From Micavibrio sp. (GTDB taxonomy: Bacteria; Pseudomonadota; Alphaproteobacteria; Micavibrionales; Micavibrionaceae), in assembly GCA_027075555.1 (NCBI GenBank), contig JALTAZ010000085.1, forward strand, positions 1-43,314: a stretch of DNA of 43,314 nucleotides, read 5' to 3'. Shown here piece after piece: positions 7,215 to 12,497 of this stretch. The notes under the pieces were generated by a model. The model did no database searches. It saw nothing but the letters and a program-made list of their open reading frames with translations, and had not been told where the DNA came from. The position numbers were made by a program, and so were the translations under genes. Position 1 is the first letter of the stretch; every line of letters starts with the position of its first letter.

Positions 7215-7685
7215 TTATTCATCGCCAGTTGAGCCAAATCCCCCTTCACCGCGTTCCTTATTTTCTTTTAGGTCATCAACTACGCGCCAATTGACATGTG
7301 TATAGCGTTCAACCACCATTTGAGCAATGCGCATTCCTCGTTGAATTGTGAATGGTTCTTTACCATGATTTATAAGGATAACTTTGATCTCTCCACGATA
7401 ATCAGCATCAATAGTTCCAGGGCTGTTTAGTACAGTAACACCATGATTAAGAGCAAGACCTGATCTAGGCCTGATTTGAGCTTCAAAACCATGGGGAAGG
7501 GCGATGGATAGCCCAGTAGGTATAAGAGCTCTATCTCCAGCACCAAGTTCCAATGCTTCTTCTAAAGCAGCGGTTAAATCCATTCCTGCAGACTCGGTGG
7601 TGGCATAGGTCGGGAGCTTTAACCCCACCGCATGTTCAAGGGGTTTTAATTCAACCTCAATATTATCGTTATTTACAAATTCCAT
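7215..7685 (-). CDS. dut: dUTP diphosphatase (dUTPase)
   Basis: This trimeric dUTPase hydrolyses dUTP to dUMP and pyrophosphate, keeping uracil out of DNA and supplying thymidylate synthesis. All family motifs are visible in the 156 residues: motif 1 SAGMDL, motif 2 RPRSGLAL (72-79), motif 3 [11 protein letters not shown] with catalytic D93, motif 4 RGMRIAQM and the C-terminal P-loop-like [10 protein letters not shown]. Its start overlaps the end of coaBC by 13 bases, so translation is probably coupled. The coaBC-dut order is widely conserved in alphaproteobacteria. Confidence 0.97.
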
Positions 7686-8914
7686 TGTTTGTCCTGTACC
7701 TTTTTATCGTTTATATGTTCAATAATTTTTTTAACAAGCTTTCTTGCAATTATCGATTTTGCTTGGCGTTTCCAAGTTTCCATTTTTTTGTCAGTAACGA
7801 AATATATTTGATTTTCATTAGAACCAAAAGCCCTTTCATTGCCTAAATCATCTTTACCTACATAATTAGCAAGTATCCAATCACATCCTTTTTTTTCTAA
7901 CTTACTTTGTGCATGGGCTTCAATATTTTGAGTTTCTGCGGCAAAGCCTATTACTAAATCAGGTCTTTTAGATTTATGATTTGATATTGTGTTTAATATA
8001 TCAGGAGTTTGTATAAATGATAGTGAAGGAGATTTACTACTTTCCTCTTTTTTTATTTTTTGCGATGATTGATGCTGTGGTTTCCAATCGCTAACGGCTG
8101 CACTGCATATGCATATTTGAACTGGTAGTGCGCTTATACACGCATTAAGCATATCTTGCGCGGTTTCTATATGAATAGTTTTTACATTTTTAGGTGAATT
8201 TAAGTTTGCAGGACCAGAAACCAAAGTGACATTAGCGCCGGCTTGTTCTAAAGCTTTGGCAATTTCATATCCTTGAATCCCCGAAGATCTGTTGCCAATA
8301 AATCTTACAGGGTCTATAGGTTCATAAGTTGGTCCGGCTGTAACTAGTGCATTAATATTTTTTAACGGCTTATCGAAAAAAAAATCTTTTATGGAGGTAA
8401 GGATATCTTCAGGTTCGCTCATGCGTCCTAATCCAGTTTCACCACAAGCCATTTCCCCTTTTTCTGGACCAACTAATTTCACGCCTCTATTTATAAGAGT
8501 TTTAATATTTTCTTGGGTTGCTGTGTTGTTCCACATCTCAGGATTCATAGCTGGAACAATTATTATATTTTTATTAGTTGCCAACAGGGTTGTTGAGGCA
8601 ATATCATCGGCTATACCATGTGCCATCTTTGCTATTATATCAGCGCTAGCAGGGGCAACTACTATAAGGTCATTTTCACGGCTAAGTCTTATATGCCCCA
8701 TTTCGGCTTCATCAGTAAGTGACCATAGGTCACAATATACTTTATTTCCTGATAGGGAAGAAACACTAAGCGGCGTAATAAACTGTTCACCACCTTTGGT
8801 TAAGATACAAGTAACAGATCCGTTATTTTTTTTTATAAGTCGTATTAGTTCAAGTGACTTATAGGCAGAAATTCCGCCTGAAATAATCAGTAATATTTTC
8901 TTATCCTTAAGCAT
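7673..8914 (-). CDS. coaBC: Bifunctional CoaBC (phosphopantothenoylcysteine synthetase/decarboxylase)
   Basis: This protein makes 4'-phosphopantetheine for coenzyme A: the C-terminal CoaB part ligates cysteine to phosphopantothenate and the N-terminal flavin CoaC part decarboxylates the product. In the 413 residues I see the CoaC active-site H74 (MGHIRLSRE), the PAMNPEMW motif (121-128) and the substrate-flap cysteine C157 ([10 protein letters not shown]). The CoaB part starts near 190 with [18 protein letters not shown] and includes AAVSDW and the VIGFAAET segment. A run of nine A (T on the coding strand) at 8376-8384 encodes a Phe triplet near the domain junction; the frame stays intact. 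Confidence 0.96.
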
Positions 8915-8944: not shown

Positions 8945-8974
8945 TAAAGAAAAAGCCTTACCAAAGGTAAGGCT
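8945..8974 (-). terminator. Rho-independent terminator of the Ala-rich gene
   Basis: A perfect 9-bp stem (AGCCTTACC/GGTAAGGCT, 8954-8974) with a 3-base loop is followed on the minus strand by a T-rich tract. It lies about 30 bases past the stop of the 852-residue gene and just before coaBC, so the two are probably separate transcripts. Confidence 0.85.
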
Positions 8975-9006: not shown

Positions 9007-11565
9007 CTATGGCAACCGAGCAGCCACACCAGCGATAATATCGGGCGCATTAGTTGCAGCAGTTTGAGCATCTACTGCTATTTGTTGTGTTGCCGTAGCC
9101 GCTGTTGAGAGCTGCCCTTGAATATTATTAGCAGCACTAGTTGCAGCATTAACTGCGCTAGTCACTTGCCCTGCCACCGCCGCTGCACTTGTACTTGTAT
9201 ATGCAGGTGAACTTGTCACAGCATCGGTTACTTCTGATACTACTACATCAGTGACTGATCCCGCGGATGCATTATTAACAATAACAGCAATACCACCAAT
9301 TATGCCATCTGCATTTTGTAAGTTAGTGGCGGCACTATTAACCGCAGTATCTGCAAACGTACCTGGGTTATTTGCAATATCTCCAATTGAATCCTTATAT
9401 TGTTGAACCTCTGGGATCACATTTCCAAACATATCTAACGGTGCCAATATAACCGAAGTTAATATATCAGTAGCAGTAGATACTAGAGTTTCTATGGCAT
9501 CAGTTACAAAAGGTATGTCTGGAAGGAAATCAATCAGCTTTGCCGGTAGAGACTTGGCTGCTTGCGCCACTAGATTCGTAACGGTAGAGATATCAAGATC
9601 ACCACCTAAAGCACCCCCAATACCTCCTGCTATGCTGCTAGTAAGGTCTGTTAAGCCACCCATATCAACAGCTCCTTTTATATCACTAAGAGTGCTTTTC
9701 GCCGCTTCTTTTGCGCTAGCAATAGCTGCTGTAGGGTCAGCTGCTGTGGACATACTTGCAACCGCAGTTGTTAGGCCTGATTGTGCTGAAGATAGCAATG
9801 ACGAGGATGAACTTAGCGCCGCAGACGTGATTCCAGCTGCTGCTGATGTTGCCGCATCCTGAGCTTCTATTACGGCCTGATCATACAAGGTGCCAGCTTC
9901 TTGCTGAGGAAGTGAAGAGGTAGCGGCCATGGCTGAATCCGAAAGTCCAGATAAAGAATCCGATGCTGAACTAAGGGCAGAACCGGCCCCAGCAAGACTA
10001 CCAGTTGATGTTGAGGCTGTTACGCTGTTACTAAGAGCCGTCATATCAGCGGAGCTAGCGACAGCTTGGTCATATAAAGACTGTGCGGCGGCAGCAGCGG
10101 AGGCATCGGTTGCTGCTTGATTATCTGCTGCAGTCTTTGCTGCTTGTGCATTAGCTTCCGCTGTAACCGCAGCAGCCTCCGCTGTTTGTGCATCAGCAAG
10201 CACTGTTTGTGCATTAGCCTCCGCTGTGGTTGCGCTAGCAAGCGCAGCAGATGTTGCATTTGCCGTTGTTGTAGCGTTCGATAATGTCGTTTGCGCAGCT
10301 GTCAGCGTAGTTTGAGCGTTATTGTAATTAGTCTGGGCTGCTGCTTCCGCAGCAATCAATGCTGGGTTGGTTGGATCCGCAGCAAGTGCTGCCTGAGCTG
10401 CATTTAAGTCAGACTGAGCGGTATTATAATTGGCCTGCGCGGTTGCTTCTGCTGCTGTGGCTGCTGTTAAATCTGCCTGCGCTGTTGCATCTGCTGCTTG
10501 TGCTGCCGTAAGGTTAGTTTGCGCTGTGGTTAGGTCTGCCTGTGCTGTTGCAACTGCTGCTTGTGCTGCTGCTAGGTCTGCCTGTGCTGTTGCAAGATCC
10601 GTTGCAGCCTGAGCCGCCGCTGCGGCTGAGGCATCTGCTGTAGCTTGGGCCGCTTGATAGTCAGCTAAAGCTGTATCAACTGCTGCTGCTGCTGCTGCCG
10701 ACGCATTTGAAAGATCTGTTGCACTTGCTTCTGCCTGGGCAGATCCAGCTTGGGCTTCGGTCGCCAAACTGGTATAGTCTATGCCGGTATCAGAAACGGC
10801 ATTTGTATTTACACCAAATGACTTTCCTGATGTTTTGTTATTAGTAAGACTAACTGTTTTTATTAGTTCCTTACCCAGTGAATCTTTATCGAATAACTTA
10901 GTATCTTTACCTTTATCTTGCGATTTAGCGGTTTTCAACGCTTGTTTTAAAATAAAAGCTTGCTGTGTCATTTTAGGGCTTTTGTCTTTATCTGACGATG
11001 CCTGACCTCTTTTTTCTGCAAACTTAGAATCGCTCATGGATCTAAGCAAATTACGCTTACCAGCCTTACTTAAACTTTTATCTCTTTTCTTACTTCTTTT
11101 GTTTGCTAAGCCTGCTTTACTTCTTGCACTCTTGGTGGCTTGTTCTAATATTATATCAAGATCATCAATACTCATCCCACCCTGATTGGCCGTGGATATA
11201 CCACCTCCGCCTACTAGAACAATATATTTATTTGTATTTAATGAACCACTTTTCTCAGGGACAAAGTGCGGACCACTACTACCTTTTATGTAAGGGGAAT
11301 TTTTTGTTTTGATTTCTTTTTCTTTAATAATAGGAGTAATATCTTGGTTTTCTTGGTTTGTTTCGTCTGTAGATGTCTTAACCAATCTAGCGGTATCTGT
11401 TATCTTTGAATTTACTGGGTCGCTAATCCCAGATGCTGGAGAAATATTTGCAACATTATTAGCATCAGAGGGTGTTATATAGCTATTGTATATAGCAAAC
11501 ATACCGACCACACCAGCCGCCAAAACAGTTGTTGAGTATACTAATGACTTTGTGAAATTGCTCAT
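9007..11565 (-). CDS. Ala-rich coiled-coil envelope protein, unknown function
   Basis: This 852-residue protein is not recognised. It opens with a hydrophobic signal-anchor (about residues 8-26), then a Ser/Thr/Asn-rich linker, a Gly-rich hydrophobic patch (YIVLVGGGG, 114-122), and a strongly basic segment (about 149-186). Residues ~265-505 are Ala/Gln/Thr-dominated with repeating AxAQADL-type units, expected to form a long helix or coiled coil, and a LYDQAV motif occurs twice (497 and 560). A more ordinary part with hydrophobic helices follows (~655-745), then a final Ala/Thr/Val-rich stretch. A good AGGAG ribosome site precedes the ATG and a strong terminator follows. The gene is richer in G+C than its neighbours. 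It may be a surface or periplasm-spanning protein (TolA-like or adhesin-like), but that is only inference. Confidence 0.8.
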   Translation of the reverse strand: MSNFTKSLVYSTTVLAAGVVGMFAIYNSYITPSDANNVANISPASGISDPVNSKITDTARLVKTSTDETNQENQDITPIIKEKEIKTKNSPYIKGSSGPHFVPEKSGSLNTNKYIVLVGGGGISTANQGGMSIDDLDIILEQATKSARSKAGLANKRSKKRDKSLSKAGKRNLLRSMSDSKFAEKRGQASSDKDKSPKMTQQAFILKQALKTAKSQDKGKDTKLFDKDSLGKELIKTVSLTNNKTSGKSFGVNTNAVSDTGIDYTSLATEAQAGSAQAEASATDLSNASAAAAAAVDTALADYQAAQATADASAAAAAQAATDLATAQADLAAAQAAVATAQADLTTAQTNLTAAQAADATAQADLTAATAAEATAQANYNTAQSDLNAAQAALAADPTNPALIAAEAAAQTNYNNAQTTLTAAQTTLSNATTTANATSAALASATTAEANAQTVLADAQTAEAAAVTAEANAQAAKTAADNQAATDASAAAAAQSLYDQAVASSADMTALSNSVTASTSTGSLAGAGSALSSASDSLSGLSDSAMAATSSLPQQEAGTLYDQAVIEAQDAATSAAAGITSAALSSSSSLLSSAQSGLTTAVASMSTAADPTAAIASAKEAAKSTLSDIKGAVDMGGLTDLTSSIAGGIGGALGGDLDISTVTNLVAQAAKSLPAKLIDFLPDIPFVTDAIETLVSTATDILTSVILAPLDMFGNVIPEVQQYKDSIGDIANNPGTFADTAVNSAATNLQNADGIIGGIAVIVNNASAGSVTDVVVSEVTDAVTSSPAYTSTSAAAVAGQVTSAVNAATSAANNIQGQLSTAATATQQIAVDAQTAATNAPDIIAGVAARLP
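10051..10775 (-). repeat. Degenerate tandem repeats encoding the Ala/Gln-rich helix
   Basis: Short related units around a GCxCAGGCAGAcxT-type core recur many times, most regularly at 10430-10620, and encode successive AxAQADL/AQTNL-like helical units. The repeats are imperfect and in frame. The borders are approximate. Confidence 0.7.
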
Positions 11566-11732
11566 TTTGTAGTCTCTCCTACTTAAAACCTAAAGGTATT
11601 AAACCTTTTTAAAAAAACATCTAGACACAATAATAATGCACCATAAAGTTATGTAATGTCAAATTAAAGAGCATTTTATATTATTTTTAAGTAATATTAC
11701 TATTAGGTTTTATGTATATATCTATGATAATT

Positions 11733-12497
11733 CTATATTTTTATTCCTTGATGAATAGCAACTATACCCATCGACATGTTTGTATATTTTGCGCGTTTAA
11801 AGCCTGCATTTTCGATTCGTTGCACCAATTCCTTTTGTTTTGGAAATTTTCTAATGCTTTCGACAAGATATTGATAACTTTCACGGTCATTTACAATTTT
11901 TTCTCCTAACTTGGGAATTACATTATACGAGTATAGGTCATATGCTTTTGCCAATATAAAGGGTCTGACATGAGAAAACTCAAGACAAAAGAATTTGCCG
12001 CCTGGTTTTAGCACCCTGTAAGCCTCTTTTAGGGCGTTATCGATATGAGTAACATTGCGCAATCCAAAGGCAATTGTGTATATATCAGTCGAGCTTTCAG
12101 GCAGGGGAAGTGATTCTGCGTTGCCTGTTACCCAGTTAAAATCATTGATCCATCCTTTATCAATTGCTCTATCCCTGCCAACTGATAGCATACTATAATT
12201 GAGATCACAAAGTGTGATATTTGCTCCTGCACCAGTTTTATTACGAATTTTAAAGGCTATATCACCTGTTCCTCCTGCAACATCAATATAGTTTGTTGGG
12301 CGCCCTGCTATTGTTGCTCTAGGGCGTATCATTTTGATGAAGCGATCTTTCCACAGGCGGTGAATGCCTATGCTCATAAAGTCATTCATGAGGTCATACC
12401 TATTGGCAACACTATCAAAAACGCCAATAACTCCGCGGGTTTTTTCTTCTGGAGTAACGTTTTTTTCTCCAAACCATGATTTTTCAGGATTTTGCAT
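11733..12497 (-). CDS. ubiE: Demethylmenaquinone/2-polyprenyl-benzoquinol methyltransferase UbiE
   Basis: This SAM-dependent C-methyltransferase acts in ubiquinone (and menaquinone where present) synthesis. The 254 residues show the UbiE start (VFDSVANRYDLMNDFMSIGIHRLWK), the SAM-binding DVAGGTGDIAF (72-82), the GNAESLPLPES and IAFGLRNVT motifs and the family C-terminus GIVAIHQG. An AAGGAG ribosome site lies just before the ATG. Its start is only 37 bases from the divergent murJ start. In many alphaproteobacteria ubiE is followed by ubiB and coaBC; here the next gene is instead the 852-residue Ala-rich protein. Confidence 0.96.
   Translation of the reverse strand: MQNPEKSWFGEKNVTPEEKTRGVIGVFDSVANRYDLMNDFMSIGIHRLWKDRFIKMIRPRATIAGRPTNYIDVAGGTGDIAFKIRNKTGAGANITLCDLNYSMLSVGRDRAIDKGWINDFNWVTGNAESLPLPESSTDIYTIAFGLRNVTHIDNALKEAYRVLKPGGKFFCLEFSHVRPFILAKAYDLYSYNVIPKLGEKIVNDRESYQYLVESIRKFPKQKELVQRIENAGFKRAKYTNMSMGIVAIHQGIKI

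Follow-up and report, generated by a model that had tools for sequence, protein, structure and literature searches.

A membrane-anchored protein of unusual length from an undescribed family in Micavibrio-type bacteria, with a candidate LapG-type box

The window analysed here is the whole 43,314-nucleotide stretch of Micavibrio sp. DNA, the minus strand of which carries mutS, dut, coaBC, the gene studied (here called X, as is its product) and ubiE, with murJ and trpS also lying in the neighbourhood of X. The X open reading frame is real, and alanine makes up 23% of its 852-residue product (Table 1). A preliminary description of this DNA had pictured a long, alanine-rich, signal-anchored frame between ubiE and coaBC with a ribosome site and terminator of its own, and all of these features, including a single hydrophobic segment at the N-terminus, were found in place. 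It had also called X richer in G+C than its neighbours, which held (0.45 versus 0.34–0.43 in six neighbouring genes); at fourfold-degenerate sites, however, X was ordinary (0.28 versus 0.24–0.31 in the six neighbours), and the excess was therefore attributed to its alanine codons; a foreign origin, as the high G+C might have suggested, was rejected on the fourfold-site values. A tblastn search for a phage or plasmid origin of X likewise gave no match. Two plus-strand frames, one of 157 aa antisense to coaBC (8391-8864) and one of 122 aa antisense to X (9494-9862), are probably shadow ORFs.

Table 1. Features of the X locus and of the X protein, in window coordinates
Feature	Position	Strand	Basis or remark
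X, Ala-rich protein, 852 aa, predicted inner-membrane-anchored	9007..11565	-	ORF, ATG start
Ribosome-binding site of X, AGGAG	11576..11580	-	ends 10 nt 5' of ATG
Intrinsic terminator 3' of X	8954..8974	-	9-bp stem, then T-run
ubiE, neighbour upstream of X	11733..12497	-	
coaBC, neighbour downstream of X	7673..8914	-	
dut, beyond coaBC	7215..7685	-	
Membrane anchor, ~residues 8-27, family-conserved	11485..11544	-	alignment and hydrophobicity
Box ISPASG, residues 41-46, LapG-like site drifted in this copy	11428..11445	-	alignment
Lys/Arg-rich linker, ~residues 147-245	10831..11127	-	
Predicted antiparallel Ala coiled-coil hairpin, residues 264-517, heptad period	10015..10776	-	AlphaFold2 and sequence
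C-terminal region, residues 518-852, no relative found, fold without confident prediction	9010..10014	-	

The gene order ubiE-ubiB-coaBC-dut is common in alphaproteobacteria. In the window, ubiE, coaBC and dut keep their order and strand and the gap holds no UbiB-like frame, as had been noted in the preliminary description, which went on to propose that X had replaced ubiB; this replacement, however, vanished on comparison with relatives. The window genome encodes one ABC1/UbiB-family protein, on contig C143, which scored 178 bits against TIGR01982 (cut-off 487.55). A TIGR01982 match of any strength was obtained in 53 of the 58 genomes of the order, none of them passing the cut-off, and in 10 of 14 control genomes, two of which passed. 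When the UbiB-like protein of the window genome was searched by tblastn against 40 related loci around coaBC, none was matched, and in two genomes of another family of the order (G048 and G051) ubiE and coaBC are separated by gaps of 29 and 20 nt with nothing between them. It was therefore concluded that X did not displace ubiB here, and that it seems novel at this locus because the window copy exceeds the other members seen several-fold in length. The adjoining ubiE might still suggest that X replaces UbiB or serves ubiquinone synthesis, but this is very improbable, given that X lacks an ABC1 domain (Pfam to E 1) and has its own terminator, that a UbiB-family protein is encoded elsewhere in the same genome, and that X is retained at three loci (L053, L059 and L062) where ubiE was not found beside it. 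The genomes carrying these three loci (G002, G008 and G011) also gave no TIGR01982 match, a hint that ubiquinone synthesis has been lost in them, although two of the genomes are just 74–76% complete.

X belongs to an undescribed family of membrane-anchored proteins from Micavibrio-type bacteria, within which its length is exceptional. Whole X gave no match in Pfam up to E 1 or in PHROG, PADLOC and the PDB sequences at 0.01, and its three parts, searched separately, were also unmatched in Pfam. NCBIfam returned one sub-threshold coiled-coil match, to the SEC10/PgrA surface exclusion family (TIGR04320), with which X shares a heptad coiled-coil stretch at residues 316–396 while scoring well below the curated cut-off (27.3 versus 70 bits). 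No title on the family was found among open-licence publications. The earlier expectation of an undescribed and lineage-restricted protein was borne out.

Family genomes are here those of the taxonomic family of the window genome, with counts taken over 103 or 104 of them, and the order set comprises 58 genomes. A search of the latter with X retrieved X itself and 19 relatives through alignments confined to residues 1–90, and M1, F4, S7, Y10, S11, V14, L15, G18 and P42 were invariant in 21 aligned N-termini. The family is defined by about the first 50 residues, which comprise the membrane anchor and a P-A-[AS]-G box. A profile built from these 21 rows matched 75 of 104 family genomes, once in each, which is a lower bound, as further members (for example at L064 and L081) were added by reading loci. 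At the 32 family loci read, X was present in 29; two of the others (L078 and L079) had no ubiE that could be found beside coaBC, and the third (L080) had a gap of 56 nt. In other families of the order, an X-like gene, assigned from its place and box, was seen at three of eight loci. The named GTDB collection yielded no confirmed relative when scanned with full-length X, and 36 loci, from Micavibrio sp. or Alphaproteobacteria bacterium, when scanned with the N-terminal anchor alignment; coaBC lay downstream of X in all 36 and ubiE upstream in 33. Of 33 loci scanned for terminators, 18 showed a terminator-like hairpin 3' of X. An X-type gene upstream of coaBC is thus resident across the family, and what sets the window copy apart is its length: stop-to-stop frames span 88–329 aa in 74 other members and 860 in the window member, and among 51 distinct sequences the other 50 span 80–316 aa, the next longest being 316 aa. 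Net charge was negative in 31 of 32 other members, with alanine contents of 6–39%.

Hydrophobicity in X is restricted to the one N-terminal segment (KD19 1.78 at residue 7, with no later window above 1.6), which is flanked by positive charge on its N-side and negative charge on its C-side. By the positive-inside rule, the N-terminus is predicted to be cytoplasmic and the tail periplasmic, and the box would accordingly be extracytoplasmic, as judged by sequence alone from the hydrophobic segment and its flanks. AlphaFold2, run on the single sequence, produced helices at residues 264–396 and 401–517 on either side of a DPTN turn (397–400), with block pLDDT values of 79–97 over residues 291–500 and a whole-model mean of 54; confidence may be inflated when heptad repeats are modelled from one sequence. 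A rise of 0.15 nm per residue would give the modelled hairpin a length of about 20 nm. The C-terminal part of X folded by itself reached a mean pLDDT of 45, and Foldseek with the X model gave no match at E 0.001 and generic coiled coils above that value. The last 297 residues were found only in their own genome among 58 genomes, and for the last 335 there were matches in 8 of 289 class genomes, one of them their own; the other seven scored 15–19 bits and were taken as chance. Against other X tails the window tail scored 50–56 bits at best, with 20 shuffles reaching up to 46; after composition correction only the tail from G007 was left (E 0.052), and homology among the tails is not claimed.

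In combining an N-terminal anchor with a long periplasmic spacer, X resembles TonB and TolA in the way that it might work, and a TonB of a relative (G018) also carries the box; X differs from both in having no TonB_C, TolA C-terminal or other Pfam domain. Anchor and coiled coil are likewise combined in Mitofilin/Mic60 (PF09731), which one relative (L072) matches weakly (21.4 versus 27.4 bits), whereas X is unmatched and a PF09731 gene above cut-off lies on contig C8 of the window genome.

Most of the 21 aligned rows carry I-x-P-A-[AS]-G after the membrane helix, about 15 residues outside the membrane, with A43 and G45 conserved in at least 90% of rows beside the invariant P42. PAAG occurs in 39 of the 51 distinct sequences and the other 12 deviate; a second box-like motif is present beyond residue 90 in 24 of the 51. 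The published LapG consensus is [T/A/P]AAG, cleaved between the alanines (PMC13090378). The FrhA peptide becomes insensitive when its PAAG is mutated to PRRG (PMC6890996), and APAAGED occurs in a putative site from Vibrio fischeri in a 2011 table (PMC3032553). The 39 PAAG members thus match the consensus of LapG (BTLCP, Peptidase_C93) substrates such as LapA, FrhA and CraA, whereas the window copy, with PASG, does not. Known LapG substrates further differ from X in having a targeting helix and a DP turn before the motif, neither of which is evident in X: no DP precedes the box in the 21 rows, and no helix was predicted within residues 28–46 in a low-confidence model. Nor does X look like a LapA-type adhesin, since it is predicted to be anchored in the inner membrane, has no retention module, RTX repeats (no Pfam match) or adjacent type 1 secretion genes, and has ubiE, coaBC, dut, mutS, murJ and trpS as neighbours. 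The tails of the family, conserved in composition only and spanning the lengths given above, would also suit a passive envelope spacer or filler, in which an anchor bears a fast-evolving, low-complexity tail and the box is kept structurally. This is distinctly unlikely, as the distance from box to membrane is fixed while the surroundings vary, and as the box is found elsewhere in these genomes.

A LapG-type protease is encoded in the window genome (PF06035, G000:C36:563-910, 1.2e-20), as it is in 100 of 103 family genomes and all 79 good ones, against 1 of 14 controls. The three family genomes without a match (G026, G027 and G108) are 84–86% complete and all have X. As PF06035 is near-universal in the family, its co-occurrence with the box is without power. 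Cys229, His264 and Asp279 were invariant in all seven aligned LapG-type proteins, that of the window genome (L215) among them. A profile of the seven matched LapG structures over positions ~160–310 (4u65, 2.9e-31; 4fgo, 1.7e-29) and c-di-GMP-binding PilF/MshE domains over positions ~16–80 (6f8l, 1.9e-22; 5htl, 9.1e-11), and MshEN was not among eight families listed by Pfam. The window protein (L215:41-1009; G000:C36:41-1009) has an MshEN-like N-terminal domain, a membrane segment and a LapG-type protease in one chain, and the other six have a similar layout; such a fusion may already be in print. The two MshEN motifs contain arginine (PMC5013675), where the window protease has K and P, leaving its domain a candidate nucleotide binder. 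The same genome encodes a LapA-type VWA/RTX adhesin of 1746 aa (L243:5005-15663; G000:C42) with IEPAAGD near residue 126, 3' of which lie OEP, ABC-transporter and HlyD genes, the same layout as in the Lap adhesin operon.

A DNA pattern for I-E-P-A-A-G-[E/D] was present in 81 of 103 family genomes, with a maximum of six per genome, and the reversed pattern in none of the 103. In the class sample it occurred in 16 of 279 genomes, three of which are family members, leaving 13 of 276 others; the reversed pattern occurred in 4 of 279. The box lay inside an open frame at all 30 family box loci listed, of which 16 encode large proteins with N-termini resembling those of type 1-secreted adhesins and 14 encode membrane or signal-bearing proteins with a hydrophobic segment upstream, the adhesin part of this classing rule having been drawn up after the sequences were viewed. 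With the same rule applied at a random position, 25 of 81 box-free ORFs from these same loci passed (1 adhesin-type, 24 membrane/signal); among 9 non-family loci, 2 passed (0 adhesin-type, 2 membrane/signal). Box bearers with Pfam matches comprised TonB (L246), an I78 protease inhibitor (L244), PpiC-type PPIases (L198 and L245), an HTH_25/RodZ_C protein (L200), a polysaccharide deacetylase (L182), DUF481 (L178), a beta-helix protein (L190) and TcpQ (L249). At L228 the box falls within an OmpA domain and may be a coincidence, and the bearer at L247 has, by eye, no obvious N-terminal export segment.

LapG proteases are switches for giant adhesins. In the plan proposed for the X family, a few cytoplasmic residues lead into a single membrane helix, followed by the P-A-[AS]-G box and a variable, mostly acidic tail. 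The box would be the cut site of the one-chain protease described above, so that c-di-GMP would govern the release of the tail from its anchor. The chances are about even that the family consists of such membrane-anchored LapG-type substrates; for the window copy itself, with its PASG, cleavage is less certain than this family-level reading. In the window species, the tail would have expanded into the coiled-coil hairpin and a further region, and could serve as a periplasmic rod or spacer.

More tentatively, a one-protein, c-di-GMP-gated sheddase, with its MshEN-like domain in the cytoplasm and its LapG domain in the periplasm, might cut I-E-P-A-A-G-[E/D] across envelope proteins well outside the adhesins (X, TonB, RodZ-like, PPIase and protease inhibitor) and release their periplasmic parts, X being the anchored substrate found family-wide and its tail a long coiled-coil rod in the window species. 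If true, the LapG switch would reach past the release of adhesins and serve to remodel the cell envelope in general. That the box occurs in unrelated proteins, at times two or three per protein, and stands at the extreme C-terminus of the L198 PPIase, where cutting would free almost nothing, would also fit a docking or sorting motif, common to many envelope proteins and bound uncut, with X as the anchored partner of some receptor. We consider this rather unlikely, because the adhesin box is N-terminal, like the LapG sites of published systems, lies beside Lap-type secretion genes and fits [T/A/P]AAG.

Among the individual box bearers, the TonB at L246:1346-2059 (G018:C5) has IEPAAGEE shortly after its membrane segment. 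A small anchored protein at L244:1564-1941 (G062:C20) consists of a membrane segment, IEPAAGEE and an I78 protease-inhibitor domain, and so shares the plan of X but with a known payload. Outside the family, the large genomes G157, G285 and G382 (class family f40) contain two or three box matches each.
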